A DNA stretch of 32,993 bases from Chloroflexota bacterium (lineage in GTDB: Bacteria; Chloroflexota; Dehalococcoidia; DSTF01; RBG-16-68-14), in contig JACZYW010000006.1 in assembly GCA_022570885.1 (NCBI GenBank), forward strand, positions 1 to 32,993. The letters are read 5' to 3'. A program made the position numbers and the translations under genes. Of the stretch, positions 5,208 through 29,388 are shown piece by piece; position 1 is the stretch's first letter; each line of letters starts with the position of its first letter. Below the pieces are notes generated by a model that saw nothing but the letters and a program-made list of their open reading frames with translations, did not search any database and was not told where the DNA came from.

Positions 5208-5218
5208 GCTAGACCTCG
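5182..5218. repeat. Direct repeat at the hisF start, copy 1 (functional)
   Basis: 37 bp spanning the first nine hisF codons, the ATG and the leader gaggtctagc. It is identical to 5919-5955. Extended on the hisF side to 5173-5213 it matches copy 3 (6208-6248) in 39 of 41 bases. The gaggtctag just before the hisF ATG equals the last codons and stop of the HicB-like gene at 5946, so that gene probably once abutted hisF here. Confidence 0.95.
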
Positions 5219-5917: not shown

Positions 5918-5944
5918 TCAGGGGATGATCCGTTTCGTCAGCAT
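5918..5944 (-). pseudogene. hisF start remnant, copy 2 (8 codons)
   Basis: An ATG at 5944 encodes MLTKRIIP, identical to the HisF N-terminus, then hits TGA. It is part of the 37-bp direct repeat 5919-5955. The ATG lies one base after the stop of the HicB-like gene at 5946, exactly as the functional hisF ATG lies one base after a TAG. It marks the point where the toxin-antitoxin cassette entered. Confidence 0.85.
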
Positions 5945-5945
5945 G

Positions 5946-6164
5946 CTAGACCTCGACCGTCGCCAGCTCGACCGGCTCTTTCACCTGGGGTACCGGCTCG
6001 CCGGCTTCCTCGAGCGCCCTGATGAAGCCAGCGATCGCCTCGCGAGCGTTGGCGAGCGCCTCCTCGCGAGTTCGGCCCTCCGCCGTACAGCCAGGCAGCG
6101 CGGGCACGCGAATGGTGTAGCCCTGCCCCTCTTCGACAGGCTCAAGGACGACCGTGTAACGCAT
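5946..6164 (-). CDS. HicB-like antitoxin-fold protein, orphan
   Basis: 72 aa. MRYTVVLEPVEEGQGYTIRVPALPGCTAEGRTREEALANAREAIAGFIRALEEAGEP is the standard HicB partial-RNase-H-like domain (beta strands, PALPGC turn, helix). The usual C-terminal DNA-binding domain is absent, and no HicA-sized ORF with a dsRBD-like fold lies on either side. It begins three bases after a 24-codon remnant of hisF that would act as a leader. Its final codons and stop (gag gtc tag) belong to the 37-bp repeat found again before hisF. The family often acts in toxin-antitoxin pairs, but solitary members of unknown role are common. Confidence 0.8.
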   Translation of the reverse strand: MRYTVVLEPVEEGQGYTIRVPALPGCTAEGRTREEALANAREAIAGFIRALEEAGEPVPQVKEPVELATVEV

Positions 6165-6167
6165 GAC

Positions 6168-6242
6168 TTACCTCACAACAGTTCTCGGAGCTCCCTGACC
6201 AAAGTCCACGTCAAAGCAGGGGATGATGCGTTTCGTCAGCAT
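6168..6242 (-). pseudogene. hisF start remnant, copy 3 (24-codon leader ORF)
   Basis: From ATG 6242 the strand reads [12 protein letters not shown], identical to HisF residues 1-12, then continues DFGQGAPRTVVR and stops at 6168, three bases before the HicB-like start at 6164. The two mismatches to the functional copy make it older than copy 2. The fragment has no start-to-stop HisF function; it may couple translation into the HicB-like gene. Confidence 0.85.
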
Positions 6243-6268
6243 GCTAGATGAGCTTCCTGACCTAGACC

Positions 6269-13694: not shown

Positions 13695-15614
13695 ATGCAA
13701 CTGCCCTCCGATAACCGGCGCCGCTGGCGCTCGCGTGGCCGACATCGGCCGCAAGGCGAGATCTTCCGCCAGCGCTTCCTCCTGCTGAAGATGCTGATCG
13801 TCTTGCTCTTCGGCGTCCTGGTCCTCCAGCTAGTACGCATGCAGATCGTCGAACACGACGCCTACCAGGAGCGGGCGGAGTTCAACCGGCTGCGACTGAT
13901 CCCCGACTTGTCGACCCGCGGCCTGATCTTCGATCGGTACGGGGAGCAGCTCGTCTACAACGTCCCGATCTTCTCCGCCGCCGTGATCCCCGCCGACGTG
14001 CCCAAAGACCAGTTGGGGACGGTTGCGGCAGCGCTCTCGAGTATCACCGGCGTGCCTTCCCAAGAGATCACAGAGCAGATCTTGGCGGGGCAGGCGGGAA
14101 ACAACCCCTTCACGCCCGTGGTGGTGCAACAGAATGTGGACGAGGAGACGGCCTTCCTCCTGCGAGAGCGGCTGCCGGAACTGCCCGGCGTGCAGGTGCT
14201 GGTAGAATCGATGCGCTCCTACCCATCGGGCACCCTCGCGTCCGTGTTGCTCGGCTACGTCGGCCGGATCAACGCGGACGAGTACGCATCGCTGCAGAAC
14301 AGCGGCTACCAGCTCAACGATCGGCTGGGCAAGACCGGCGTAGAGCTCATCTACGAATCGACGCTGCGGGGCACGACCGGCTACCGTCAGGTGGAATTCG
14401 ATGTCACCGGCCGGGAGATCCGCACCATCCGCTCCGTCCCGCCTCGCCCTGGCAGCAACCTGGTGCTCTCGCTCGACCTCGACCTCCAGCGCCAAGTCGA
14501 AGCGATCCTCCAGGATGCGATGGGCGACTCCACGAACGGCGTCGCCGCTGTCATGGACGTGAACACCGGCGAGATGCTAGCCATGGTCTCGCTCCCGTCG
14601 TACGACAACAACCTGCTCACCGATCCGGTCGACGAGGAGGCGTACTTACGACTCCTCAACAACCCGGCGAAGCCGCTCGTGAACCACGCCATCGCCGAGG
14701 TGTACCCGCCCGGGAGCACTTTCAAGGAGGTCACGGGCACCGCCGCCCTGCAGGAGGGGGTGGCGACGCCCGATACGCGCATCACCAGCCGCGGCTACAT
14801 CACCGTCCCCAACGAGTACAACCCCGGCGAGGTGTATATCTACCGCGACTGGGCCGTCCTGGGCACGCTCGACTTCTACGGGGGGCTGGCCCAGTCGTCC
14901 GACGTGTACTACTACTATCTCTCAGGCGGCTACTTCCAGGACGGCGTGCAGGTCTTCCGCGGGCTGGGAGCGAAGCGGCTGGCCGCCTACGCCCGCGAGT
15001 ACGGCCTGGGCGCGATCACCGGCATCGATCTGCCGGGCGAGGCGGCGGGCCTGGTACCGGACCCCACATGGAAGCAGGAGACCCTCCACGAGCCCTGGAC
15101 CCTTGGCGACACCTACAACTTCGGCATCGGCCAGGGATACCTCGCCGTCACGCCGCTGCAGCTCCTGCGGGTGACGGCGGCCGTCGCCAACGGCGGCGAT
15201 GTGCTCGTCCCACACGTCCTCCGTGGAGTGATCGACGAAGATGGCAATATCCTCCGGCGAGTGGAGCGAGAAGTAGCTCAGGCACTCAGCATCTCCGACC
15301 GCAACCTGGCAGTCATGCGCGAGGCGATGCGGCAGGCGGCGGAGACGGGTACCGCCCGAAGCGGTGCGAGCCGGTTCGTCACCATCGCCGGGAAGACGGG
15401 TACGGCGGAGTTCGGCCCGCAGCCTGACGAAGGCGAGGATCACCCGACTCACGGCTGGTACACCGGCTTCGCCCCCTTCGCTAATCCAGAGATCGCCGTC
15501 GTGGTCTTCTTGCAGCAGGGCAAGGGTTCGCGCGACGCCGGGCCAGTCGCCAGCCAGATCTTCGACTACTACTTCGGCCGCGAGCGTCTGGCAGAGGAGC
15601 GCCTGACGCCATGA
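13695..15614 (+). CDS. mrdA: Penicillin-binding protein 2, elongation transpeptidase
   Basis: 639-aa class B PBP. Short cytoplasmic N-terminus, one membrane span near 33-49, then a PBP dimer/pedestal domain with STRGLIFDRYGEQLVYN, and a transpeptidase domain with SxxK at Ser341-Lys344 (PPGSTFKEV), SxD at 401-403 (SSDVYYY) and KTG at 567-569 (AGKTGTAE). It cross-links peptidoglycan during elongation together with RodA, which starts four bases before this gene ends (ATGA). Known in E. coli as mrdA/pbpA. Confidence 0.96.
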   Translation: MQLPSDNRRRWRSRGRHRPQGEIFRQRFLLLKMLIVLLFGVLVLQLVRMQIVEHDAYQERAEFNRLRLIPDLSTRGLIFDRYGEQLVYNVPIFSAAVIPADVPKDQLGTVAAALSSITGVPSQEITEQILAGQAGNNPFTPVVVQQNVDEETAFLLRERLPELPGVQVLVESMRSYPSGTLASVLLGYVGRINADEYASLQNSGYQLNDRLGKTGVELIYESTLRGTTGYRQVEFDVTGREIRTIRSVPPRPGSNLVLSLDLDLQRQVEAILQDAMGDSTNGVAAVMDVNTGEMLAMVSLPSYDNNLLTDPVDEEAYLRLLNNPAKPLVNHAIAEVYPPGSTFKEVTGTAALQEGVATPDTRITSRGYITVPNEYNPGEVYIYRDWAVLGTLDFYGGLAQSSDVYYYYLSGGYFQDGVQVFRGLGAKRLAAYAREYGLGAITGIDLPGEAAGLVPDPTWKQETLHEPWTLGDTYNFGIGQGYLAVTPLQLLRVTAAVANGGDVLVPHVLRGVIDEDGNILRRVEREVAQALSISDRNLAVMREAMRQAAETGTARSGASRFVTIAGKTGTAEFGPQPDEGEDHPTHGWYTGFAPFANPEIAVVVFLQQGKGSRDAGPVASQIFDYYFGRERLAEERLTP

Positions 15615-16747
15615 ACGCCCGCACCATGCGGCTCCGCGACCTCGACCCGATCCTGATGCTGGCAGCGCTGGCGTTGGTGACCCTGGGCGCGCTTCTCATC
15701 CACAGCGGCACGCTCAACCGCTTCGGGCCGCCCAGCGTCTCCGATTTCTCCCACCCGGTAGTGCGCCAGGGGGTCTTCGCCGCGGTCGGCCTCCTCCTCG
15801 CGCTCGTCATCGCGCGCATCGACTATCGGGCGCTGGGATTCCTCACCCCCACGCTCTACGTCGTTAGCATCGCCTCACTGCTCTTCGTGCTCGTCGTGGG
15901 CGAGGAGACGTTCGGGTCGCGACGCTGGATCCTGGTGGGCGGCACGCCGGTGCAGCCGTCGGAGATCGCCAAGCTGGTCGTGATCATCGCGCTGGCGAAA
16001 TACCTATCTGACCATCAGGAGTCGATCGGCACGCTGCGGGTATTCCTCACCTCGCTCGCGCTGGCGGCGGTGCCGGCGGCGCTGGTCCTTGTCCAGCCGG
16101 ACCTGGGTTCGACGGTGATCTTCGCCGTGATCTGGCTGGGGATGGTGACCGTGGCCGGGGCGAACTGGCGGCATCTGCTGGGCCTATTCACCACCGCGGT
16201 CATCGCCGCGCCGTTTCTGTTCGTCGCGCTCCGAGGCTACCAGCGAGAACGCATCTCCCTCTGGTTGGACCCCGAGAGCGACCCGCTGGGCGCCGGCTTC
16301 AACATCCTCCAGGCCAAGATCAGCATCGGCTCCGGCGGCGTTTTCGGGAAGGGGCTGACGGAGGGGAGCCAGACGCAGCTCGACTATCTGCGCACGGAGA
16401 CCACCGACTACGTATTCAGCATCCTGGGCGAGGAGCTGGGCCTGGTGGGAGCGCTACTGCTCTTCGGGCTGTTCATGCTGCTGCTCTGGCGAGGGCTGCG
16501 CGTCGCGGAGCTCTCCCGCGACCTCTTCGGCCGGCTGATAGCGATAGGGATCGTGGTCTTCATCCTGCTTCAGACGTTTATTAACGTGGCCGTGAACATC
16601 GGGATGTTGCCGGTGACGGGCATCCCGCTGCCGTTCGTCAGCCAGGGAGGCAGCTCGCTCATCACCTTCTTCATCGGCCTGGGCATCATGCAGAGCATCT
16701 TGCTGCGCCACCGTCGGCTCAGCTTCCGCACCTTCTACGAACCGTAG
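15611..16747 (+). CDS. rodA: Peptidoglycan glycosyltransferase RodA (SEDS family)
   Basis: 378 aa, polytopic (about ten membrane spans). SEDS signatures are visible: KLVVIIALAKYL, VLVQPDLGSTVIFAVIW, the loop before GLTEGSQTQLDYLRTETTDYVFSILGEELG, and the C-terminal VTGIPLPFVSQGGSSL. It polymerises lipid II strands with PBP2 as partner. The last 54 bases of the VTGIPLPFVSQGGSSLIT coding segment (16613-16666) are repeated without change at 19977-20030. Confidence 0.97.
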   Translation: MNARTMRLRDLDPILMLAALALVTLGALLIHSGTLNRFGPPSVSDFSHPVVRQGVFAAVGLLLALVIARIDYRALGFLTPTLYVVSIASLLFVLVVGEETFGSRRWILVGGTPVQPSEIAKLVVIIALAKYLSDHQESIGTLRVFLTSLALAAVPAALVLVQPDLGSTVIFAVIWLGMVTVAGANWRHLLGLFTTAVIAAPFLFVALRGYQRERISLWLDPESDPLGAGFNILQAKISIGSGGVFGKGLTEGSQTQLDYLRTETTDYVFSILGEELGLVGALLLFGLFMLLLWRGLRVAELSRDLFGRLIAIGIVVFILLQTFINVAVNIGMLPVTGIPLPFVSQGGSSLITFFIGLGIMQSILLRHRRLSFRTFYEP

Positions 16748-16886
16748 CGCGAGCGCCACTCCAAGCCGTCGTTGTAGAAATAAGGCCTCTCGGAGCTAAG
16801 CGAGGAAGTATCAACTTCGATGTCTACCGTGGCAGGACGACTAATTCCCCGATCATGGCAGGGCGAGTTGGGCTAAGACGAGGCAC

Positions 16887-16926
16887 GCCTCATGGCGCCC
16901 AGGGGAGGGCCCGGGCGCCATGAGGC
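16887..16926. terminator. Strong 14-bp hairpin after the rodA operon
   Basis: gcctcatggcgccc (16887-16900) and gggcgccatgaggc (16913-16926) pair perfectly with a 12-base loop. No T-run follows on either side, so this may act as a bidirectional or factor-assisted terminator between convergent rodA and the cupredoxin gene. The rest of 16748-16957 shows no gene or RNA. Confidence 0.6.
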
Positions 16927-16957
16927 TGTGCGCTGCACTAATCGGGTAAGGCCGCAG

Positions 16958-17539
16958 TTAACCCCCTGGCCTGGGCAACACGACGATCTCGGCCGTCATT
17001 GTCGGTGCGTGAGTGCCGCAGATGAGCCGGTACACGCCGGCCTTCTCCAGACTCACAGAGAGGTCGTATTCGCGTCCCCTGTTCATCACCACAACGTCGC
17101 CAACGATGTTGCCGTCTGGGTCTTCAATCCATGTCTCGTGCGTGTTTCCGTTGAGGACGAAGATATGCAGGCCCAGCGTATCACCCTGGCGGGCGACCAT
17201 CTGTCCAGGTGTCCACATGTATGACGCAACCTGCCACTTGTCTGGATTGTCCGGGTCGTAGTCACCCGGAGCCTTGTATCCAAAGCCAGCGGACAGCGTC
17301 GAGGGGTCGACATCCGGCGGGGCAAGATCGTCAACGCTCGTCGAGCCCTTGACCTCGAATGCCGTAACTTCGATCAGATGATTGGTGGGTGGCGGTAGCA
17401 GAGCCGCCAGAGCGGCTTCGACTTCCGCAGCGGTGTCGCCGTTGTCTGCCCCATCAGCGCACGCGACGAACGCAAACGTGAGAGTCAGAGCCAGAGCGAG
17501 AGCAGCGAAGATCATACCTATTCGCCATGTACGTTTCAT
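16958..17539 (-). CDS. Cupredoxin-domain lipoprotein
   Basis: 193 aa. A hydrophobic leader ends at FVAC, giving a likely lipidated Cys27 (Phe at -3 is atypical). After a linker, the domain has LHIFVLNGNTHETWIEDPDG, and near the C-terminus VYRLICGTHAPTMTAEIVVLP. Type-1 copper ligands would be His134 or His125, Cys174, His177 and Met181 (C-x2-H-x3-M). The double-Cys CuA pattern of cytochrome oxidase subunit II is absent. A membrane-tethered electron carrier, comparable to Chloroflexus auracyanins, is a reasonable inference. AAGGAGG precedes the ATG. Confidence 0.82.
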   Translation of the reverse strand: MKRTWRIGMIFAALALALTLTFAFVACADGADNGDTAAEVEAALAALLPPPTNHLIEVTAFEVKGSTSVDDLAPPDVDPSTLSAGFGYKAPGDYDPDNPDKWQVASYMWTPGQMVARQGDTLGLHIFVLNGNTHETWIEDPDGNIVGDVVVMNRGREYDLSVSLEKAGVYRLICGTHAPTMTAEIVVLPRPGG

Positions 17540-17672
17540 CGGTTTGCCTCCTTGTCCGAACTCGTTCTACTTATGGATCATAGAAGCCATCCCGCGATGC
17601 AACTACGGACGAAGGGCGGGAATGAGTCCCACCCGGGAGGGGACTAAAGTCTGGGGACCGGCTAGTCCTGCG

Positions 17673-18308
17673 CTAGGTCGCGCGCTCGGCCGCGCGGGCC
17701 TTGAGGGCGGCTTCTACGCGGTTTCGCACCTGCAGCTTGGTGAGGATGTTGGTCACGTAGTGCTTGATGGTCTTCTCACTCAGGTAGAGCTCGGCCGCGA
17801 TCTCCTTGTTGGTTTGGCCCTGGGCGATCCGCTCGAGGATTTCTTGCTCCCGCGCCGACAAGTCCGGCAGGCCCGCCGGGCGGTTCTTTGCCATTTCGGT
17901 CAAGATCCGACCGGCCATCCCTGGCGCGACGTACGTTTCTCCAGAGTGTACTGCCTGCACGGCGGCGACGAGGTCGTCCGCCGTCACCCCCTTCACGATG
18001 TAACCACGGGCACCTTGCTTCAGGGCCAGGAACAGGGTTTCTTCGTCCTCGCTCACCGTCAGGATCACGACCTTGCAGATCGGTACTTCTGCCTGCAACT
18101 GGGGCAGGATATCCAGGCCGCTTCCGCCCGGCATGCTGACGTCCAAGAGGAGGACGTCGGGGAGCGTCTCGCGGGCCTTCTCCAGGGCTTCGGCGGCGGT
18201 GCTGGCCTCCGCTACGACCGTCATCTCGGGCGTGTTGAGAGTCTGAATCACGCCCCGACGGAAGAGCGCGTGATCATCGGCGACGAGCAACCTGATGGGT
18301 TCGGTCAT
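17673..18308 (-). CDS. NarL/LuxR-family response regulator
   Basis: 211 aa. The receiver domain has acidic pair Asp11-Asp12, phospho-acceptor Asp56 (VLLLDVSMPG) and Lys106 (GYIVKG). A C-terminal LuxR-type HTH follows (LSAREQEILERIAQGQTNKEIAAELYLSEKTIKHYVTNILTKLQVRNRVEA). It should bind DNA when phosphorylated by the histidine kinase, whose stop it overlaps by four bases (ATGA). Its regulon is unknown; the cupredoxin and lipoprotein genes nearby are candidates only by position. Confidence 0.95.
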   Translation of the reverse strand: MTEPIRLLVADDHALFRRGVIQTLNTPEMTVVAEASTAAEALEKARETLPDVLLLDVSMPGGSGLDILPQLQAEVPICKVVILTVSEDEETLFLALKQGARGYIVKGVTADDLVAAVQAVHSGETYVAPGMAGRILTEMAKNRPAGLPDLSAREQEILERIAQGQTNKEIAAELYLSEKTIKHYVTNILTKLQVRNRVEAALKARAAERAT

Positions 18309-19759
18309 GGCATGTACTCCTCGTCTGCCGGGATCCGGGCAACTACGCGGGTGCCAGATCCGGGTTGTGATTCGATGCTCAAGGAGCCGCCCAGCAGCTC
18401 CGCGCGCTCTCGCATGCCGCGGATACCTAATCGTGCTCGTTCTCCTCGCTGTCGTTCCCGCACTTCATTCGGATCGAAGCCGATCCCATCGTCGGTGACC
18501 TCTATTTCGAGCCAACCGCTTCGCAGCGAGACGCTCACGGTCTGCGTCGCGGCCTGGCCGTGGAGGAAGGAGTTGTTCAGCGCTTCCAGGATGATGCGGT
18601 AGGTCGTGGCTTTCGACGCGACAGAGAGCTGTGCTCCAGAAGCTTCTGTCCGGCAGGAAACGGCGCGGCCCGTCCTTTGGCTGAAATCGGCCAACGCCCG
18701 CGAGACGATGGCGGCCGCGTCGAGTTCCTCCAAGTCAGGGATGCGGATCTCACTGGAAATGTTCCGCAAGTCGGCTAGGGCGCTCTCGACGGACTGGCGA
18801 AGCAACGCCCAATCCTCTTGCTGCTCCGGACGAGATGCCCCAGAGAGGTGATCCAGCCGCAGCAGTGCCACGGCCAGATTCTGAGCCGGTGCGTCGTGAA
18901 GATCCTGGGCGATGCGCCCCATCACTTGCTCTTCGGTCTGAACGTTGGAAGCGCTCGCGGCGCGCACCTGCTGTGTAAGCTTCCGAAGCCCGGCGTTCTG
19001 CCTGCGGATGGTGACGCTGGCCTGGCGCACCATCCCGTTGAGGATCAGAAACATGACCAGCGTCGCAATGGCGACGATGATCCAGCCCTTAATCTGCGAA
19101 GTCCGCAGCTCGCTCAGGATCTCATCTGGGAGCTGGTAGAACTCCGAGACAGCGATGACGCGGCCGGTCTCGTGCGAACGCACCGGAGCGTAGGTCTCAA
19201 GGAGCTCGCTCCAGCGTTCCCGTTCAAACTGGTTCTCCGCTTCGTCCAGGTTGCTGATATGCGCGGAAACCTGGCCGTCCGCCGCGTCCTGATAGTAGCC
19301 CGTTACGGAAAAGGCTTGCCCCAGCAGCCGATCGTCTGTTGCGTAGACTACTTTTCCACCGAGAGTCCAGATCTTGTATGAGACGATCCTCTCACCAAGG
19401 GCGGTGTCCGTAAGCAAGCTGTCCAGTGCACTGACGCTCTCAGGTGGCAGCGTGGAGCTTCGTTCCAACGACTGGAGGAGCGGGCTCACGAAGCTATCAA
19501 CATACAAGGCGTTCGTCGCTGCAGCCCGCTGGATAACCAGGTTCTTAATTTCACCCACGGTCCAGCCACCAATGACCAGAGCGCCGGAGACGAGGACCAC
19601 GACGCTGAACACCAGAAATCTCAGCTCGAGAGGAGCGGACCATGCCCGTCGTGCGGCTGCCAGACCTCTGGTTCGCGCGCCCCGCAACCGGGCCATAACG
19701 CCGCGATCTCTCCCAAGATGCAGAACGCCAGTGCTCTGCGCCGTCTCCAGTTCGTGCAT
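18305..19759 (-). CDS. NarX/DesK-type sensor histidine kinase
   Basis: 484 aa. TM1 (about residues 47-67) and TM2 (225-242) flank a ~155-residue extracytoplasmic sensor with DTALGERIVSYKIWTLGGKVVYATDDRLLG, resembling single-Cache/PAS-like sensors. After a coiled linker the HisKA_3 box has His288 (RIAQDLHDAPAQNLA), then the ATPase domain: N box Asn395-396 (EALNNSFLHG), DDGIGFDP and GIRGMRERAELLGG. Start ATG 19759 has AAGGAAAGGG before it; the longer frame to 19837 has no such site and no homology. Signal not predictable. Confidence 0.93.
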   Translation of the reverse strand: MHELETAQSTGVLHLGRDRGVMARLRGARTRGLAAARRAWSAPLELRFLVFSVVVLVSGALVIGGWTVGEIKNLVIQRAAATNALYVDSFVSPLLQSLERSSTLPPESVSALDSLLTDTALGERIVSYKIWTLGGKVVYATDDRLLGQAFSVTGYYQDAADGQVSAHISNLDEAENQFERERWSELLETYAPVRSHETGRVIAVSEFYQLPDEILSELRTSQIKGWIIVAIATLVMFLILNGMVRQASVTIRRQNAGLRKLTQQVRAASASNVQTEEQVMGRIAQDLHDAPAQNLAVALLRLDHLSGASRPEQQEDWALLRQSVESALADLRNISSEIRIPDLEELDAAAIVSRALADFSQRTGRAVSCRTEASGAQLSVASKATTYRIILEALNNSFLHGQAATQTVSVSLRSGWLEIEVTDDGIGFDPNEVRERQRGERARLGIRGMRERAELLGGSLSIESQPGSGTRVVARIPADEEYMP

Positions 19760-19918
19760 AAGAATCGCCCTTTCCTTAAGCGTTACACGAGCGCAGATAC
19801 AATCGAAAGGGCCGAGTGCCCCAGAACGAGAGGACAAACGGCCCCTTCAGCCGGAATAGGGCAGGCCTAGCAGTGTTTCGCTTGCCGGGAATGACGCGCC
19901 TGCCGGGTGTGTACCCCC

Positions 19919-19985
19919 TTACTTCGCCGCGCTCTCCTCAACGACGCCGATGTGCAACGTCCGCAGCTGCCCCTTCGTGACGGGC
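19919..19985 (-). pseudogene. aspS 3'-end remnant
   Basis: On the minus strand this encodes PVTKGQLRTLHIGVVEESAAK plus stop. The end of AspS (23832 onward) reads [21 protein letters not shown]: same length, 15 of 21 residues identical, about 82% of bases. There is no upstream aspS body. It is joined to a rodA fragment through the shared sequence cgtgacgggc. Confidence 0.9.
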
Positions 19986-20099
19986 ATCCCGCTGCCGTTC
20001 GTCAGCCAGGGAGGCAGCTCGCTCATCACCCCACTCATCGGCCTGGGCATCCAGCTCCGCCACCGGCACCTCAGTTTCCGCACCTTCTACGATCCGTAG
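19977..20099 (+). pseudogene. rodA 3'-end remnant
   Basis: Encodes VTGIPLPFVSQGGSSLIT (54 bases identical to rodA 16613-16666), then PLIGLGIQLRHRHLSFRTFYDP and a TAG stop. Compared with RodA it lacks four codons (MQSI/LL region) and carries several substitutions but keeps frame. No upstream RodA body exists; before the shared gtgacgggc the sequence is aspS-like. Confidence 0.92.
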
Positions 20100-20139
20100 C
20101 GGACAGCAAGACGCCTACATGGCCCCCGCTCGCAGGGCC

Positions 20140-20167
20140 ATTCGGCCCCTTGGTCAGGGGGCCGAAT
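20140..20167. repeat. 10-bp stem hairpin in the spacer before the lipoprotein gene
   Basis: attcggcccc (20140-20149) and ggggccgaat (20158-20167) are perfect inverted arms with an 8-base loop. It lies between the rodA remnant and the lipoprotein gene. It could end any transcript reading through the remnant, or belong to the window's palindrome families. The rest of 20100-20276 shows no gene. Confidence 0.6.
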
Positions 20168-20276
20168 GTCGCTAACATCGATATGCGCACGCCGGTATGT
20201 AATCCCGGTCACAATACTCAGTAAGTAGCGGCGCTATGGTTCCTCCTAGCGAGTTCAAAGCAGAGGAGGTAACAGC

Positions 20277-21821
20277 ATGAGACGCCCATTGTACCTAGTT
20301 CTGGGCCTTCTCGCGGTTCTGGCGGTCGGAATCGCGTGCGGCGACGACGGAGAGCCGGAAGTCCCGACGCCCGGCGCAACCGCGGCTCCCACCGCCGAGG
20401 TAGGCGGCGAGATCGACTTCGCTGCCGCCAGCGGCATCGAAGGGGGCGACGCCGAGTTCAACTTCGCGGCGCTCATCTGGCAGGGGTACTGGCTCTCGCG
20501 AGACCATTTCGGGCCCTTCGTCATGGCCTCGGGCATGGGCATCCCATTCGAGCCGCCCATGGACCAGGTGATGATGGCGATCGGGATGATAGCGCAGAAC
20601 CCAGATGACCCCGTCACCATCCCGCAGAACATGATGCCGCTACAGGCAATCTTCGCCTCCGGCAGTCCAGATCTGGTCAACGACCCCAGGGACTTCGATC
20701 CTCTGGACTTCGAGGCCTTCCGTCTCGACCCCAGCACCTTCAACGAGACGGTGACGGTTCGAGGCCAGGCGGAAACGATGCTCAAGGAGAGCCAGTGGGC
20801 CCACAACTTCGCCTCCGCCCATTTCGGAGACCCAGCGGACGACTTCGGCGCCCTGCAGCGCTTCATCGGGATGATGGTCTCGATGCTCGCCCAGATGCAG
20901 GGCCAGTACGCCATGCAGAACTTGCTCGGTGACGACGGTCTCTACCTGGACTCCGACGGCACGCTGGACTACACCGGCAACTGGGTCATGCTCCACACGC
21001 TCTCAGACATCGCTGGCCTGACCGGAGAGCAGGGCGGCCGCTACGCGAACCCGGACGTTCACCCCATGTTCGAGGACGCGGCGAGCCAGCTCTTCCGCAC
21101 CCTGGAGGAGCGCCAGCCGGAGTCCGCTCAGGAAGCGGCAGCCGCCATCCGGGCCGTCATCTACCGCGCCTCGACCGCCACGGACAGCGATGTCCGCGAT
21201 GACGCGCTGGCCAAGGCGAGCGCCATCGCCGACGGTCAGCTGCTGGACGTGAGCTCCGGCGACGTCGTCGAGAACGCCGCCGCCATCGCCGGCCTCATCG
21301 CCGTCGCCGCCGTCGAAGACAGCGGGCTGTACCGGGACGCGGCGGACTTACTGTTCCAACGCCTCTCCGATGATTTCGACGCCGACCTCGGGATCTTCAC
21401 GTCCAAGGACGTCTACAACGTGGACGAAGTAGGCTGGATCATCGGCGGGCTGAACGCCCTCGTGCAGGAGGGCAACGACGCCAGCAGAGGGCCGGCCGGC
21501 CGGATGCTCCTCGCCTTCTACGAGAACACGATGAGCCTGGCCGGCATGCAGCTCTCCGCCCCGCCGGGCAAGAGCGGCGCTATGGCGGGCGAGTTCGAGA
21601 TGAGTCTGCCCAGCGTCGTCTACTACCACCCGGCTGACACGCCGCCGCCACCCATAGCCGGCAAGCTGACGGTGCCCGCCGAGGAGATCACCTGGGACGG
21701 CAACGCATGGGAAGTGACCAGCGACCGCTTTGTCACCGGCGGAGCCATGCACCTGGCGAACGAGCTGAACTGGCTCGGGCCACACCTGGGATCGATCCCC
21801 TTCCCGTCGGTGAGCCCTTAG
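20277..21821 (+). CDS. Large lipoprotein of unknown function
   Basis: 514 aa. An AGAGGAGGT site precedes the ATG. The signal peptide ends with a lipobox GIAC (Cys21), then an acidic and Pro/Thr/Ala-rich linker. The mature part is mostly helical. It is Met-rich between residues ~80 and 215 (VMMAIGMI, NMMPLQ, GMMVSMLAQMQGQYAM). From ~290 to 420 repeated helix pairs (AAAAIRAVIYRASTATDS, AAAIAGLIAVAAVEDSG, GWIIGGLNALVQEG) suggest an alpha/alpha toroid-like domain. No catalytic motif or known family was recognised. It lies in the segment bounded by the aspS/rodA scar and aspS. Confidence 0.8.
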   Translation: MRRPLYLVLGLLAVLAVGIACGDDGEPEVPTPGATAAPTAEVGGEIDFAAASGIEGGDAEFNFAALIWQGYWLSRDHFGPFVMASGMGIPFEPPMDQVMMAIGMIAQNPDDPVTIPQNMMPLQAIFASGSPDLVNDPRDFDPLDFEAFRLDPSTFNETVTVRGQAETMLKESQWAHNFASAHFGDPADDFGALQRFIGMMVSMLAQMQGQYAMQNLLGDDGLYLDSDGTLDYTGNWVMLHTLSDIAGLTGEQGGRYANPDVHPMFEDAASQLFRTLEERQPESAQEAAAAIRAVIYRASTATDSDVRDDALAKASAIADGQLLDVSSGDVVENAAAIAGLIAVAAVEDSGLYRDAADLLFQRLSDDFDADLGIFTSKDVYNVDEVGWIIGGLNALVQEGNDASRGPAGRMLLAFYENTMSLAGMQLSAPPGKSGAMAGEFEMSLPSVVYYHPADTPPPPIAGKLTVPAEEITWDGNAWEVTSDRFVTGGAMHLANELNWLGPHLGSIPFPSVSP

Positions 21822-21835
21822 GGAGGCAGCGGTAG

Positions 21836-21917
21836 CCCTCACCCCCGTCCCCTCTCCCACTGGGAGAGGGGCGATCAGGAGATCAGTCAGCACTCTCGAT
21901 AGGTCGGGGTGAGGGCG
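21836..21917. repeat. Nested palindrome (ccctcacccc...ggggtgaggg type)
   Basis: Outer 11-bp arms gccctcacccc (21836-21846) and ggggtgagggc (21907-21917) enclose a second perfect hairpin, cccctctccca-c-tgggagagggg (21850-21872). The inner element is a widely dispersed bacterial intergenic palindrome. It separates the lipoprotein gene from the next gene and may reduce read-through. Confidence 0.85.
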
Positions 21918-21990
21918 AGCCGTGACAGAGGCTTGACCCCCCCCATGCGCTGTGGTAAACCATAGTCCCTCAGGAGAGGAGCGCAGCGCG

Positions 21991-22755
21991 ATGCTCTCCA
22001 GCCCATTGGCCGGCATTCTACGAGTAGGCGTGGTTCTGCTCGCGGCGGGCGCCCTAGCGGGAGGCGTCTACCTGCTCGCCCAGGCCGACGACGAGCGAAC
22101 CGCCTCCAGCCTCGAAGCGCCCACCGCCATTGCAGCCGCGCCCGGGCCGCTCTCGCCGCCCGCCGACATCGGCACACCACCAGCGATCGATACCTCCAAC
22201 TGGCTGAAGTACAGTAGCACCTACGGATACTCCTTCAGCTACCCGCCCGATTGGATATTACTGGAGTTTCCTGAGACGGACTCGCCAGTACCCGACGGAC
22301 AGCCGGGGCAGTCGATCTGGCTGATGAATCCAGCATTCGAGAATGCGCGTCGGATTGCTCTTGCCGAGAGAGGCGGACTACCGGGCGGTTTTGAACCCCC
22401 TGCAAGATCCGTGAAAGTAGAGATTAACGTGCTTCCCACAGGTCCCGTAGTTGGCGGGCATTTTGATGCGGCTAGCTTCTCCGAATTCTGCGAAAACAAT
22501 ATTGTTCCGCCAGAACACCTGAGAGGGGCCACGCTCAGAGCACTGGAAGGGGCCGCCGCCGGTCGGCAGGCGGTCCACTGCCTACCCATCGCCGCAACAA
22601 TCGGAGACCTAGAGGCACCCGCTCTCACGGTCTGGTTTGAACTCGCCGAGAAACGAACTCTACGAATTAACCCTCGTATGGTTCAACCCACAGCAGAAGA
22701 GGCGGCACAGGTGCTATCGATCGTCGCTTCCATCTTGTTTGAACCAGCGCCATGA
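21991..22755 (+). CDS. Membrane-anchored protein with PsbP-like domain
   Basis: 254 aa. ATG 21991 is chosen for its GGAGAGGAG site; a GTG at 21952 would add 13 residues. One N-terminal membrane span (residues ~7-29) is followed by a disordered Ala/Pro linker. The domain from ~71 (WLKYSSTYGYSFSYPPDWIL) matches the start of PsbP/MOG1-like and related exported domains (YGFSFxYPxxW), and its end (TAEEAAQVLSIVASILFEP) matches their last helix. Function unknown. Its TGA overlaps the next gene's ATG, so the two are coupled. Confidence 0.75.
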   Translation: MLSSPLAGILRVGVVLLAAGALAGGVYLLAQADDERTASSLEAPTAIAAAPGPLSPPADIGTPPAIDTSNWLKYSSTYGYSFSYPPDWILLEFPETDSPVPDGQPGQSIWLMNPAFENARRIALAERGGLPGGFEPPARSVKVEINVLPTGPVVGGHFDAASFSEFCENNIVPPEHLRGATLRALEGAAAGRQAVHCLPIAATIGDLEAPALTVWFELAEKRTLRINPRMVQPTAEEAAQVLSIVASILFEPAP

Positions 22756-23600
22756 GACGAGTGCTAGTAATCCTAGTCGTAACTGTAGCTACGGTGAGCG
22801 TGTTACCGCGCGACGCACTCGCAGCTCAGTCCGGAGACGGCCAGCCACACATCGCCCGGCTGCCATGGCTTGCAACCGAAGGCCGTGTGCTGACAACAGG
22901 ATGGGGCGGATGCACAAGTTTCGGCAGCCACTGTCCAGGAAACCCAGATCAATATGCTGTGGACTTTGCTGCAGCCGGCTCGCCGTCCCCGCCATTCAAC
23001 GCGTACGCTGCTACTGAGAGCGACGTTGCGTCATGTCAGGATACGTCCACCGGCGGTCACATCGCGGTTGTGACTCGCATCGACGGAAAGACGGAGAGGT
23101 ATGTCCACTTAGCTGGTTGTCCGTCGGCTGGTACTCACTTGGAACAGGGTGATTTGATAGGACTTGCGGACGGCTCAGGCTCCTCATCCACCGGAGCACA
23201 TCTCCACTTCGAGCTACGAAATACTTCCTCAGGTCCAACTGTCAAGTTCGAACTGTCAGGTCTGGAGAATAAGTTCTGTGCATTTGCCCTACGCGCCCAG
23301 TGCGGTGGGGTGACCTACCAGGGCCAAACGTACACCTCCGACAACGCTGGCCCGGGGGTGGGCGCGCCGAGCCCGCAAAATGGCAAGATGCGCTTCTCCT
23401 ACATCGCCGGCGGGCACAACGCCGAGGACTGCGCGCCGGGAGAGGAAGCCTGGGACTGCTACGGCTCCAGTGTGGAAGCTGGCGGCGTTGGGCCCAAGGC
23501 CTTCCACGCCGCCAGCGCCGGCGACTGGGCCTGGCACCAGTGGTTCGTGTCCCCAGATCTGGTCTGGCACGCCCTCAACATGCCGGACGCCTGTTCCTGA
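22752..23600 (+). CDS. Secreted M23-family peptidase, ending at an in-frame TGA
   Basis: 282 aa to the TGA at 23598. Signal peptide with cleavage near ALA-AQ (residue 24). The LytM/M23 domain has His60, Asp71 (QYAVDFAA), His119 (YVHLAG) and the HxH pair His150/His152 (GAHLHFEL). The first zinc ligand is ten residues from Asp71 rather than the usual four, an arrangement seen in some M23 branches. A C-terminal domain begins at about residue 185 and is cut by the TGA. The same frame then continues 67 codons, without another stop, to 23804. It probably cleaves peptidoglycan or peptides outside the cell if active. Confidence 0.85.
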   Translation: MRRVLVILVVTVATVSVLPRDALAAQSGDGQPHIARLPWLATEGRVLTTGWGGCTSFGSHCPGNPDQYAVDFAAAGSPSPPFNAYAATESDVASCQDTSTGGHIAVVTRIDGKTERYVHLAGCPSAGTHLEQGDLIGLADGSGSSSTGAHLHFELRNTSSGPTVKFELSGLENKFCAFALRAQCGGVTYQGQTYTSDNAGPGVGAPSPQNGKMRFSYIAGGHNAEDCAPGEEAWDCYGSSVEAGGVGPKAFHAASAGDWAWHQWFVSPDLVWHALNMPDACS

Positions 23601-23804
23601 GCGCCCTTCGCCTACGTGATCCCGAACCAGTACTTCATCTCGTGGCTCAATAACGCCAGTCAGCTAGGCCAGCCTCGCTCCCAGGTGGTCTTCACGTGGC
23701 CCGGCATCTGGAGCCAGACCTTCCGTTTCGGCTACATGTGGTCGGCCCAGTACGGCGCGAACCCCACTATCGTCTTCAATGTCGACACTACTACCTGCTT
23801 CTGA
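23601..23804 (+). pseudogene. In-frame C-terminal continuation of the M23 peptidase gene
   Basis: Directly after the TGA the same frame encodes APFAYVIPNQYFISWLNN, then an aromatic-rich domain end (SQVVFTWPGIWSQTFRFGYMWSAQ) and TGA at 23804. Composition and frame match the upstream domain, so this is the rest of the same protein. A TGG-to-TGA change (reading ...DACS-W-APFAYV) would explain the break; a sequencing error or read-through are alternatives. Confidence 0.8.
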
Positions 23805-23831
23805 TACGCGGTCCTAAGCCGCTCGCGCCCC

Positions 23832-25661
23832 CTACTTCGCCTCGGGCTCCTCGACGACGCTGATGTGCAGCGTCTGTAACTGCTCCTCCGTGACGGGCGA
23901 GGGGGCGCCGGTCATCGGATCGGAGGCGTTCTTCGTCTTCGGGAAGGCGAACACCTCGCGGATGTCGTCCTCGCCGGCGAGCTGGGCGACGATGCGGTCG
24001 ATGCCGGGCGCGAAGCCGGCATGGGGCGGCGCGCCGTACTCGAACGCCTCCAGCATGTGGCCGAAGCGAGCGCGGACATCCTCCTCGCCGATGCCGAGCA
24101 GCCGGAACACCCGCTCCTGCTGCTCCCGTTGGTAGATCCGCACGCTGCCGCTGCTCAGCTCGTAGCCGTTGCACACCAGGTCGTAGGCGCGGCTGCGGAT
24201 GCGCGCCGGGTCCGACTCGAACAGGTGCAGGTCCTCCTCCATCGGCGCGGTGAAGAGGTGGTGCGAGGCCTCCCAGCGGTCGTTTTCGTCGTTCCACTCG
24301 ACGAGGGGGAACTCGGTGATGTAAGCGTAGTGGAGCGTCTCCGGATCGGCCAGCTTGAGGCGCGCGGCGACCTCGCGACGGAGGCCGTCGAGCGACGGCT
24401 TCACCCGCTGCACGGAGCCCGGCTCCAGCTTGCGCATCCCGCCTCCGCCCGCGACGAGCAGCAGCAGGTCGCCTCGCTTCGCACCGGCGAGTTGGGCAGC
24501 GCCTCGCAGCAGCTCCGGCGAGAGGTACTTGGCCACCGGCGAGCGCACGTCCTCCACCGTCAGCGAGCCGATATCGCCTTCGCCCAGCAGCGCGATCGAG
24601 ACGAGCCCCTTGGCGCCGTAGCCCTGGACGAACGTGGTGAGCTTATCGATCTCCTTGCGGGAGAACTCCGCGCCGCCGGGGACGCAGATGCCCTCTACGG
24701 ACCCGCCGCTGCCGACGGCGTTGCTGAAGACGCCGAACTCCGAGGAGGCGGCGAGCTCGCTCAGGTCGAAGAGCTCCATCCCATAGCGTAAGTCGGGCTT
24801 ATCGGTGCCGAAACGGCGCATCGATTCCTCGAACGTGAGGCGGGGGAACGGCGTGACCAGCTTCAGGTCCGGCCGTACCGCCCGCGCCAGGCTGGTAAAC
24901 AGCTCCTCGAAGAGCGAGAGGATGTCCTCTTCGGAAGCGAAGCTCATCTCCAGATCGAGCTGGGTGAACTCGGGCTGGCGGTCGGCGCGCAGGTCTTCGT
25001 CGCGGAAGCAGCGGGCGATCTGGAAGTAGCGCTCGAACCCGGCCACCATGAGCAACTGCTTATACTGCTGCGGCGATTGAGGCAGCGCGTAGAAGCTGCC
25101 CGGCTGAAGGCGGCTGGGCACCAGGTAATCGCGCGCGCCCTCCGGCGTGCTGTTCGTGAGAATGGGCGTCTCGATCTCGATGAAGCCGCGTTCGCCCAGG
25201 AAGCGGCGGATGAAGGCGATGACGCGATGCCGGAGCCAGAAGTTGCGCTGCATCCGCTCGCGGCGCAGGTCGAGGTAGCGATAGCGGAGCCGCAGCAACT
25301 CCTCCACCTCGGTCTCCTCGTTCACGGGGAAGGGCGGCGTGCGAGACGCGTTCAGCACCTCCAGCTCGCCGGCGCGCACCTCGATCTCGCCCGTGGGGAG
25401 CCGCTCGTTCTCGGTGCCGGGCTGGCGCGCGACGACCTCGCCCCGCACGAGCAGCACGAACTCGTTCCGCACGTCGCCGGCGACCGTGTGCGCTTCGGGC
25501 TCCTCCGGGTGGACGACGACCTGCACCAGCCCCTGGCTATCGCGCATGTCGAGGAAGACGAGGCCGCCGTGGTCGCGGCGGCGATGCACCCAGCCGGCCA
25601 GCGTTATCTGCTGGCCAATGTGCTCCTTGCGCAGCTCCCCGCAAAAGTGGCTCTTGAGCAT
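23832..25661 (-). CDS. aspS: Aspartyl-tRNA synthetase, probably non-discriminating
   Basis: 609-aa bacterial-type class IIb synthetase that charges tRNA with Asp. N-terminal OB anticodon-binding domain ([19 protein letters not shown]), motif 1 region ([16 protein letters not shown]), motif 2 ([23 protein letters not shown]), a GAD insertion domain, and motif 3 ([13 protein letters not shown]). His31 in RRRDH and the following loop PGTEN are the residues associated with tRNA(Asn) acceptance in non-discriminating AspRS, which work with the GatCAB amidotransferase. GGAGGGGAG precedes the ATG. Its 3' end is partly duplicated at 19919-19985. Confidence 0.96.
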
Positions 25662-25738: not shown

Positions 25739-26614
25739 CTACTTGTTGAACACCAGATAAAAGCAGCAGGACTGTCCCGTCTGTCTGCCGGTTGAGGCGT
25801 CGATCAGGTAAGTCATGCCATACTCCTCGCCGAGGCGCTTCGGGCCCAAAGCATCGCCTGCCGCCAGCATGATCGACCACACCACGGGGTCGGGGGTGCT
25901 GCTGCCGCCGAACACCCTCGACACGCGGTCGAGGGTGGCCCTGACGGGCCGGACGCCAGCCGGCAAGCGGCTGGTGACGATCTTCATCGCCTCTTGGGCC
26001 GACAGATAATCGCCTTCTTCATGCACGATGATCTCAGGCAGGTCGGCCGGCAGCCGAATCGTACTCCCGAATACCCTGCCGCCTGGCAATGGGGAACCGT
26101 CCTCCTGATCGCAGAACCCGGCGGAGTAACGGAAGAGGAGGGCTGGCTGATCCAAGCGGCGCAAGAACTGTTCGGTCGGGACACGGCCGATCGGGCCGCT
26201 GCGAAAGCCGAGGGATGCGCGACCGCCAACCTCCCACCCGGCAGGCGATGGGTCATACGATCCGACGCCTACCTGGGCGGGCACGTACTCATACGGCATC
26301 GCCTCCAGCCCGAGAAGAACGGTTTTTTCTAGCGTTACCTGCCCTGTGTACGCGAAAATTCGCAGCACCATGGGTACGCCATACGTATCCGCCGTAGCGG
26401 CGTCCCCACAGCTACTCGGCTGCTCGGAGACCATGCGGAAATCATTAAAGAATTCGCTCTCCCAGACCAACGCATTGGGAGGCTCCGGCTCCGGTACCGT
26501 CGACGGCGCGGCCACATCCCCGTCGCGCAGCAGGAGCAATGCGAGGAGAACCAGGCCAGCCAGCATCGCCAGCAGGCCCGCTTGCAGCGCGACGGTTCGC
26601 CCTCGGTTCGTCAT
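25739..26614 (-). CDS. Membrane-anchored protein, paralogous N-terminus to the 26674 gene
   Basis: 291 aa. The N-terminal TM anchor (RTVALQAGLLAMLAGLVLLALLLLRDGD) is nearly the same as that of the upstream gene (STVVLQAGLLATLAGLGLIAFLLLRDGD), but the rest differs. The extracytoplasmic part (about residues 45-291) has several Cys (SSCGD, AGFCDQ, QSCCFYL) and no recognised motif. Start ATG 26614 follows a recJ 3'-end remnant by 5 bases; a GTG/ATG at 26635 is less likely because it lies inside that remnant. Confidence 0.75.
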   Translation of the reverse strand: MTNRGRTVALQAGLLAMLAGLVLLALLLLRDGDVAAPSTVPEPEPPNALVWESEFFNDFRMVSEQPSSCGDAATADTYGVPMVLRIFAYTGQVTLEKTVLLGLEAMPYEYVPAQVGVGSYDPSPAGWEVGGRASLGFRSGPIGRVPTEQFLRRLDQPALLFRYSAGFCDQEDGSPLPGGRVFGSTIRLPADLPEIIVHEEGDYLSAQEAMKIVTSRLPAGVRPVRATLDRVSRVFGGSSTPDPVVWSIMLAAGDALGPKRLGEEYGMTYLIDASTGRQTGQSCCFYLVFNK

Positions 26615-26619
26615 ATTCC

Positions 26620-26679
26620 TCAGTATGCCGGGCACGGGTCCAGCACCCGCAACTCCAGGCCGTCGTCCCTCGTTTATCG
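26620..26679 (-). pseudogene. recJ 3'-end remnant
   Basis: On the minus strand it reads DGLELRVLDPCPAY then TGA; RecJ ends GGLELRVLDLRPAD then TGA. About four in five bases match recJ 27715-27775. It overlaps the stop of the beta-propeller gene (26674) and lies just before the next gene's start, just as recJ lies just before the beta-propeller gene. Confidence 0.88.
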
Positions 26680-27687
26680 CCCCTCCGTCCAGGAGATCAT
26701 GGGTGGCCGGTAGTCACAGCCCGGCAGATGCTGCGGGACGCAGCCCGGCTGCTCCGCGAAGTGGCGGTCGCGGCCCCCCAGCGGCGCCAGGTCGACGATC
26801 TGCTCGTCCACCGTGCCATCGACCGAGGCCACCCGCAGCGTGTCGCCGAGGAAGTAGGCGAAGGAGCGCCCGTCCGGCGAGAGCGCGGGGCTGCTGCCGA
26901 TGGCCACTTGGCGCATGTCGCCCGGCTCGCCGTACAGGATCGGCCCCTCGTTGATGAACGGCCCCACCAGCCAGCGACCGTCTGCCGCGCGGGTGGCCGT
27001 GAGCGCAGGGCGCTCTTCATCCGAGATGAGAACGTTGGGTTCCTCCTCGCCCGTCCGGCGGAACACCAGCACCTGGCCGGCGCCCTCATAGGCCCCGATA
27101 TAGGCCGCGATCTGTTCGTCATCCAGCCACGTAGCCTCTAGGAAGCCGCCACCGATGGGATATATCTCCTCTCGCTCGGAGCCGTCGGGCCGCATCACCC
27201 AGATATTGCTCGTACCAGAGCCACTGATCCGGGCCACCACGTACGCGATATGCTCGCCGTCCGGTGACCACGCCGCGCTCTGCGCTCCTAAGGATGAGTT
27301 GGAGGCGCCCCCGCCGGTAGGCGTCGCGAAGTTGCCAACGTCCGCCAGGAGGCGGATATCCTGCCCATCGGCGTTAGCGACCCAGAGATCGAAATCGCGG
27401 ACAAAGATCAGCTTCGCGCCGTCCGGCGAGAGGGCGGGCGAGGCGTTCCACATCGAATCGCGGTCGCCGGGGATGACCTCCCGCAGCGCAGAGCCATCGG
27501 CGGCCACCGTGTAGATGCTGCCGCCTGCCGAAAAAGCCAGGGTGTTTACGAGAGCGGTGTCGCCCGCGGGCGACGCAGAGCCGTCGCCGTCGCGCAGCAA
27601 GAGGAAGGCGATGAGGCCGAGTCCGGCCAGCGTCGCCAGGAGGCCGGCTTGCAGCACCACGGTGCTGGCGGCGCGTCCTCTCAGCAT
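26674..27687 (-). CDS. Membrane-anchored TolB/WD40-like beta-propeller protein
   Basis: 337 aa. N-terminal anchor (residues ~8-32), then TolB/PD40-type repeats with the signature ALSPDGAKLIFVRD, AAWSPDGEHIAYVV, NIWVMRPDGSER and ALSPDGRSFAYFLGD. Such propellers bind protein or peptide partners outside the membrane. No catalytic domain is attached. It begins right after an extended -10 box at 27697-27705, so its mRNA would be almost leaderless. It is separated from recJ by 27 bases. Confidence 0.85.
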   Translation of the reverse strand: MLRGRAASTVVLQAGLLATLAGLGLIAFLLLRDGDGSASPAGDTALVNTLAFSAGGSIYTVAADGSALREVIPGDRDSMWNASPALSPDGAKLIFVRDFDLWVANADGQDIRLLADVGNFATPTGGGASNSSLGAQSAAWSPDGEHIAYVVARISGSGTSNIWVMRPDGSEREEIYPIGGGFLEATWLDDEQIAAYIGAYEGAGQVLVFRRTGEEEPNVLISDEERPALTATRAADGRWLVGPFINEGPILYGEPGDMRQVAIGSSPALSPDGRSFAYFLGDTLRVASVDGTVDEQIVDLAPLGGRDRHFAEQPGCVPQHLPGCDYRPPMISWTEGR

Positions 27688-27705: not shown

Positions 27706-27714
27706 GTATTCGGC

Positions 27715-29388
27715 TCAGTCCGCCGGACGCAGGTCGAGCACGCGCAGCTCCAGGCCGCCACCCCTGAACTTATCGACCGAGAGCGTGTAGACGAGGTCGG
27801 CCCGCGCGCCCTGCTCGATGCCCTCGCCTCGCTGGCGGAAGGCGATGGCCGGCCAGACGACGGCGCCGTCGCGCAGCTTCAGGCGCAGATGATCGCCGTT
27901 CTTCCCTAGCTGCCGTCGTTCGGTGACGACGACACCCCGGCTGAGGAACACCGGGTCCGGGTTGCCGACGCCGTAGGGCGCCAGCCGCGCCAACCAGCGG
28001 ATCTCCTCGCTCCGCAGCGCCGAGAGCGGCAGCTCCGCATCGATGTCGATCGCCGGCGTCAGCTCTCGCCCGTCGAGCTGCTCATGGGCGTGGGCCAGCA
28101 GCCGCTCCTTGATCGCGGGCAGCTGCTCGTTCTCGGCGGTGAAGCCGGCGGCGGCGCGATGGCCGCCGAAGCGCACGAACAGCTCCGGGCAGGTGCGCAG
28201 CGCCGCCGTCACGTCGAACCCCTCGATGCTGCGGGCGCTGGCGCGGCTCGTCTTCTCCCCGCGCTGGTAGATGATCGCCGGCCGGTGGTACTGCTCCGCC
28301 AGCCGGGCGGCGACCAGCCCGACGATGCCCAGCGGGAACTCCGGATGGCCGAGCATGATCAGCGGCGCGCCCTCCTCCTCGACCACCAGCTCGCCGGCCA
28401 AGGCGAGGGCGGCATCCGTCGCGCGGCGACGCTCGCGGTTGAGCGCGTCCAGCTCTGCCGCCAGCTCCTGCGCGCGCTCCTCCTCTTCGCAGACCAGCAG
28501 GTCGAACGCGAGGCGGGCGTGCCCCAGGCGGCCGGCGGCGTTCAGCCGCGGCCCCAGGCCGAAGCCGATCGTCTCGGTATCGACCGGCCCCCGGCCGCTG
28601 CCCGCGACCGCAAGCAGCGCCCGCAGGCCGGGGCGCTGCGTCTGCGCCAGCGCGCGCAGCCCGCGCCGCACCAGGCGACGGTTCTCGCCCAGCATCGGCG
28701 CCAGGTCGCACACCGTAGCCAGCGCGACGAGCTCCAGCATGCGCGCCTCATCGGCGGGACGGCCCAGCGTCTCGTGCAGTGCCAGCAGCACCTGATAGAC
28801 GATGCCGCAGGCTGACGGTTCGTTCGTCGAGTTCGGGTCGCGCTTCGGGTTGACGATGGCGTTGGCGCCGGGGAGCTGCGGCGGCACGGTGTGGTGGTCC
28901 AGCACCACGACGTCCATCCCCTGCCCGCGAGCGAAGGCCACCTCCTTGAGCGAGCTGGTGCCGCAGTCGACCGTAACCAACAGCGTCGCGCCCAACCCGA
29001 GCAGTGTCTCGATGGCCTTCGTGCTGAGGCCGTAGCCCTCGTCGACGCGATGCGGCAGGTACGGGACGGGGCGGGCCCCCAGCGATTCGAGGCCCTCTGT
29101 GAGCAGCGCCGTCGCCGTCACGCCATCGACGTCGAAGTCGCCGAAGACGGCGACGGTCTCGCCCGCACGGCAGGCCTGGGCGAGCAGCGACACGGCGCGA
29201 TCGAGGTCGGGCAGGGCTACGGGCGAGGCAGGCGCATCGACATCGAGGAACGCGCGCGCGTCGCTCGACGAGCGCACGCCTCGCAGCGCCAGCAGCCGTC
29301 CGATGAGCGACGGCCAGTCGCCCTCCGGCGTCGCCTCCGGCTCAGGCCGGAGACGCCAGCGCTTGGTGGCGACCTGGTTCGCGATCAT
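27715..29388 (-). CDS. recJ: Single-stranded-DNA-specific exonuclease RecJ
   Basis: 557 aa, 5'-3' ssDNA exonuclease for recombination and mismatch repair. DHH-family motifs: GDFDVDGVTATALL (motif I), VTVDCGTSS (II), VVLDHHTVP (III). The DHHA1 region carries FGGHRAAAGFT, and the C-terminal OB domain ends at GGLELRVLDLRPAD. Length fits the core RecJ. A GGAGAGGGGAG site precedes the ATG. Its last ~60 bases recur at 26620-26679. Confidence 0.96.
   Translation of the reverse strand: MIANQVATKRWRLRPEPEATPEGDWPSLIGRLLALRGVRSSSDARAFLDVDAPASPVALPDLDRAVSLLAQACRAGETVAVFGDFDVDGVTATALLTEGLESLGARPVPYLPHRVDEGYGLSTKAIETLLGLGATLLVTVDCGTSSLKEVAFARGQGMDVVVLDHHTVPPQLPGANAIVNPKRDPNSTNEPSACGIVYQVLLALHETLGRPADEARMLELVALATVCDLAPMLGENRRLVRRGLRALAQTQRPGLRALLAVAGSGRGPVDTETIGFGLGPRLNAAGRLGHARLAFDLLVCEEEERAQELAAELDALNRERRRATDAALALAGELVVEEEGAPLIMLGHPEFPLGIVGLVAARLAEQYHRPAIIYQRGEKTSRASARSIEGFDVTAALRTCPELFVRFGGHRAAAGFTAENEQLPAIKERLLAHAHEQLDGRELTPAIDIDAELPLSALRSEEIRWLARLAPYGVGNPDPVFLSRGVVVTERRQLGKNGDHLRLKLRDGAVVWPAIAFRQRGEGIEQGARADLVYTLSVDKFRGGGLELRVLDLRPAD

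Follow-up and report, generated by a model that had tools for sequence, protein, structure and literature searches.

How can the ends of two essential genes come to lie fused together between the intact copies of those same genes, with unrelated sets of genes on either side? The question is raised by a chimeric sequence in the window, the stretch of 32,993 nucleotides analysed here, which comes from contig C112 of the Chloroflexota genome G000 (a metagenome-assembled genome of 2.34 Mb in 238 contigs, 90.8% complete and with 4.3% contamination). Intact rodA and intact aspS converge on a 7.1-kb interval, and in the middle of it an aspS end is joined to a rodA end (Table 1).

Structure of the chimera and its two slots

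Positions 19800-20250 were compared by blastn with the window, and the whole window was compared with itself. The aspS part of the chimera matched 23828-23898 at 59 of 71 positions (83%, E 2.5e-14) and the rodA part matched 16613-16749 with 84% over 137 columns (E 3.9e-37), so that the preliminary description of an aspS end and a rodA end fused through a shared short word is borne out. The chimera contains the final 67 bases of aspS and the final 123 of a rodA copy, equivalent to 135 in intact rodA. The geometry and positions reported earlier were right except that the aspS part starts at 19915 and not at 19919, and its divergence, put at about 18%, was measured as 12 of 71 positions (17%).

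Each of the two matches is a direct repeat of its parent, and they overlap in GTGACGGGC; with aspS alone the overlap reaches 10 bp (CGTGACGGGC). By our own arithmetic a 9-bp overlap at the junction has a probability of about 4e-6 per position and is not expected by chance. The aspS end comes before the rodA end and both keep their parental orientations. In other words the 9-bp word links the distal end of the segment head-to-tail with its proximal end, both in direct orientation, which is the tandem-duplication type of junction that had been proposed.

Table 1. Features of the rodA-aspS interval, in coordinates of the window
Feature	Position	Strand	Description
rodA	15611-16747	+	Intact, 378 aa; shape/elongation SEDS protein; Pfam FTSW_RODA_SPOVE, E 8e-100; source of the rodA part
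Slot 1	16748-19914		Cupredoxin-like and two-component cargo
Cupredoxin-like secreted protein (slot 1)	16958-17539	-	Named from reading the sequence; no Pfam match
LuxR-type response regulator (slot 1)	17673-18308	-	
Histidine kinase (slot 1)	18305-19837	-	
Chimera, whole	19915-20101		About 185 bases; aspS end joined to rodA end between two unrelated cargos
Chimera, aspS part	19915-19985	-	aspS 3' end including the stop codon (19919-19921)
Junction word GTGACGGGC	19977-19985		9 bp common to both parts; in rodA 16613-16621, in aspS 23890-23898
Identical block	16613-16666 = 19977-20030	+	54 bp, includes the 9-bp word
Chimera, rodA part	19977-20101	+	rodA 3' end including the stop codon (20097-20099)
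Slot 2	20102-23831		Lipoprotein/M23 cargo
Lipoprotein (slot 2)	20277-21821	+	514 aa
Protein (slot 2)	21952-22755	+	267 aa
M23 peptidase (slot 2)	22752-23600	+	Followed by about 67-68 in-frame codons to 23804
aspS	23832-25661	-	Intact, 609-aa aspartyl-tRNA synthetase; Pfam tRNA-synt_2, E 1e-115; source of the aspS part

Sequence comparison of slot 1 with slot 2 found nothing in common, in agreement with the earlier statement that they now hold different genes. The frame of the M23 peptidase gene reads as plausible protein beyond its TGA (23598-23600), which might be due to a nonsense mutation of recent date or to a stop codon that is read through. The 514-aa lipoprotein of G000 lacks a C-terminal blue-copper-like domain that its relatives in G001 and G004 possess, while in G000 a separate cupredoxin-like gene stands in slot 1.

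Decay of the gene ends

The rodA part begins with the 54-bp block that is identical to living rodA. A run of at least 45 identical sites past the 9-bp word has P=0.013 under uniform divergence; at the same 54 sites the relatives differ from G000 at 6-12. The identity pointed out in the preliminary description is real. The gene conversion that was read from it is no more than hinted at, a local conversion or crossover patch being one possible cause.

Beyond this block the rodA part carries 12 substitutions, and 12 bp are deleted in frame. The deletion is of the slippage type, can be placed as GCATCATGCAGA and is flanked by two GCATC words. It costs the final RodA membrane helix four residues, and a proline enters the same helix. 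Compared with the intact genes, substitutions are distributed over the codon positions as 5/4/3 in the aspS part and 3/3/6 in the rodA part. When the five other family genomes were used as outgroups, 15 of the 20 polarisable differences fell on the chimera branch and five in the living genes, and the chimera-branch changes, tallied from the alignment table, were spread over the codon positions as 5/5/5. These proportions, the deletion and the proline argue that the tails drifted as dead sequence, and because a quarter of the changes (5/20) occurred in the living genes, decay has gone on long enough for those to change too. Judged by its substitutions, the chimera (19915-20101) is a non-functional junction sequence whose tails are drifting neutrally as a dead copy. 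The idea that it is a small functional gene was rejected, since the open reading frame at 19907-20224 is one of a number of frames that overlap there, and relatives lack the chimera.

The rodA-aspS interval in relatives

In all six family genomes, G000 and five others, rodA and aspS are convergent neighbours. The spacing in the five others is 3.2, 4.3, 4.3, 4.3 and 9.1 kb, and the comparison of spacing suggested in the preliminary description thus found the expected neighbourhood in each of them. In sister families of the same order the two genes are widely separated or fall on different contigs. In the rodA tree G000, the only genome of its genus among those compared, branches first in the family as sister to the five others (support 100/98). 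Glycosyltransferase genes lie between rodA and aspS in G001, G002, G003 and G005, the genomes with listed open reading frames; the locus of G004 was compared by tblastn and spacing only. The relatives' cargo adjoins or overlaps the rodA stop codon. Cargo and spacing differ across the family, which marks the locus as a variable cargo slot, and the relatives show the arrangement rodA - cargo - aspS a single time. Two of the glycosyltransferase reading frames (L048 5605-7311 and L052 3205-4656) have 3' ends that enter rodA antisense by about 70-120 bp.

No relative has cupredoxin-like, histidine kinase, lipoprotein or M23 genes between rodA and aspS, and no genome with either of the G000 cargos alone in this place was found among them. 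Two relatives carry homologues of the G000 lipoprotein (71-74%) elsewhere in their genomes; the cupredoxin-like protein, the kinase and the peptidase have only distant relatives within the order. The chimera was not found in the five other family genomes, nor was a chimera seen without rodA and aspS nearby, the case named beforehand as speaking against a tandem duplication. A search for glycosyltransferase remnants in either slot of G000 gave nothing convincing. Because G000 is the first branch of the family, its slot may never have held glycosyltransferases. Relocation of the relatives' glycosyltransferase within G000 was also considered and rejected, the sole homologue (at C202) being only 36% alike.

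Origin of the junction

The explanation for the chimera may lie in the points at which its homology to the living genes ends. Homology ceases 2 bp past the stop codon of rodA' and 4 bp beyond that of aspS' (the prime denotes the copy in the chimera), and extension anchored beyond the two stop codons was no better than in shuffled sequences (P=0.51 and 0.24). A plain duplication predicts that the DNA past the dead stops should be as recognisable as the tails themselves (83-84%). This was not seen, and we therefore favour, over simple segment duplication, a fusion of two versions of the rodA-aspS locus through microhomology, to which we give an even chance. Because homology stops 2-4 bp past both stop codons, the two versions would have differed in cargo as far as the ends of the living genes; the slots probably differed already while the tails still belonged to living genes. 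The first reading, a tandem duplication of the segment from rodA to aspS, is upheld in its geometry and by the convergent neighbours in relatives, but not by the spacers and slots, which lack homology. It was right in geometry and probably incomplete in mechanism.

According to the favoured fusion, one version of the locus would have held the cupredoxin/two-component cargo and the other the lipoprotein/M23 cargo, and both would have been brought into one chromosome, possibly by import. One crossover, within rodA or aspS, would have been an ordinary homologous exchange. The other join would have been illegitimate, at GTGACGGGC, and since aspS' and rodA' are in direct orientation it would have linked the end of aspS in one version to the end of rodA in the other. 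Possible routes are homology-facilitated illegitimate recombination (HFIR), unequal exchange of imported and resident copies, or the insertion of a circularised fragment by a single crossover. The product would be rodA - cargo 1 - aspS'/rodA' - cargo 2 - aspS, in which the two essential genes are intact and neither cargo is lost, and the trapped gene ends would then drift neutrally. The variability of the slot across the family speaks for such a fusion. Against it, no donor has been seen, and the case depends on the points where homology ends, which later exchange of cargo could also fit.

If rodA-cargo-aspS was simply duplicated in tandem through the 9-bp word and cargo was afterwards reciprocally lost and replaced, this would amount to a small SNAP or duplication-random-loss event. 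The junction geometry fits, and bacteria often undergo tandem duplications, which decay as copies are inactivated at random and leave pseudogene remnants next to active copies (PMC7055797); the chimera is just such a remnant with matching active copies nearby. However, no second copy of the sequence lying between the two junction points was found, although replacement of cargo after duplication could also account for this. Spacer and cargo homology is missing on both sides even though the dead ends are still 83-84% alike, and deletions would have to have ended no more than 2-4 bp from either dead stop codon. Nor is there a rearranged order of genes once inside one duplicated segment, the cargo genes being absent from the relatives' slot. 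We consider this course of events rather unlikely. A smaller duplication, in which abutting rodA and aspS underwent a tandem duplication of about 200 bp through the 9-bp word and received two separate cargo insertions later, would explain why homology ends right past the stop codons. An empty ancestral slot is conceivable, G000 being sister to the glycosyltransferase-carrying genomes, and slippage between 9-bp repeats is easy at short range. Both insertions would, however, have to have hit spacers of a few bp and yet missed the dead chimera of about 185 bp, which makes this sequence of events improbable. It is very improbable that an assembly or library artefact joined two strain variants of the locus. 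The contig comes from a metagenome assembly in 238 pieces and the 54-bp exact repeat exceeds small assembly k-mers, but the 9-bp overlap is far below any of them; moreover a rodA' tail without four residues of the last helix and with an extra proline, together with the 5/5/5 changes, indicates that the tails are not living strain variants.

The event behind the chimera is of a known kind, ordinary in nature and well preserved. HFIR junctions show 3-10 bp of microhomology at the illegitimate end while the other end is homologous (PMC3240628), a range that includes the 9 bp of GTGACGGGC and thereby supports HFIR or unequal exchange. In HFIR products, however, the loss of DNA is usually about equal to the gain, whereas the G000 locus keeps both cargos. 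Imported DNA is known to give rise to tandem-duplication junctions in competent bacteria (PMC4287498). In transformation-induced merodiploids of Streptococcus pneumoniae it can set off a junction of this type (PMC3784515, PMC4287498), like that at the chimera, but those duplications span about 100-900 kb, arise via long repeats and belong to a living population; the chimera is a single old local footprint. SNAP resembles the present case in the dead gene ends near intact rodA and aspS, but predicts larger segments and homologous contents of the copies, unlike the two slots. In replacement flexible genomic islands different gene sets alternate between the same core genes, as they do in this slot, and the exchange is thought to occur by homologous recombination (PMC4033161). 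There the cargo is replaced; in G000 two cargos are stacked with a scar between them.

The chimera is thus a polarised footprint of how new genes settle between essential genes, and it is informative on the order of events. The end point of homology relative to the dead stop codons provides a simple test between plain duplication and merged cargo versions. Traces of past duplications could be sought, as the SNAP paper itself suggests, among pseudogenes that have a matching active copy (PMC7055797). Should scars of gene ends turn out to be common, insertions could be counted and put in order genome-wide with their help.

Other copies of gene ends

The process that copied gene ends may not be unique to the rodA/aspS site. 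The 5' end of hisF (5182-5218) is copied exactly at 5919-5955 (37 bp), and the region 5170-5213 is copied at 6205-6248 with three changes. Genes for a PemK-like toxin and an excisionase-like antitoxin lie between the exact copies and HicB-like genes beyond them; in the relatives G001 and G004 hisA and hisF are adjacent. A copy of the recJ 3' end (27707-27765) stands at 26614-26670, with a lipoprotein-like gene on either side. That illegitimate recombination of an additive kind repeatedly stacks alternative cargos between core genes in this family, with copies of core-gene ends (hisF twice, recJ, rodA/aspS) recording such events genome-wide, is a doubtful generalisation at present.

Local pairs of repeats more than 150 bp apart were direct in 26 cases and inverted in none (219 kb of G000 and 158 kb of G001 sampled; the pairs are non-independent). 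The direct pairs amount to 7.8 and 5.7 per 100 kb in the two family genomes and to 0-5 in other samples of the class, while a 50-kb control from E. coli gave 12 (rhs and repeats). A lineage-wide excess of local direct copies is not claimed, given the size of the sample, the dependence among pairs and the count in the E. coli control.

The leader sequences encoding the N-termini of the two lipoprotein-like genes flanking the recJ copy (26517-26596 and 27584-27663) are 81% alike and their bodies are different. Local direct intergenic repeats, partly palindromic (GGGCCGACCTTAAGGTCGGCCC), occur at 29413-29479/29613-29676 and 2735-2853/2918-3023. In L098 an intergenic patchwork at 17813-17987, adjoining a GMC oxidoreductase gene and an apparent tRNA, consists of three direct copies of nearby sequences (14488-14557, 15779-15824 and 15656-15723) in changed order.
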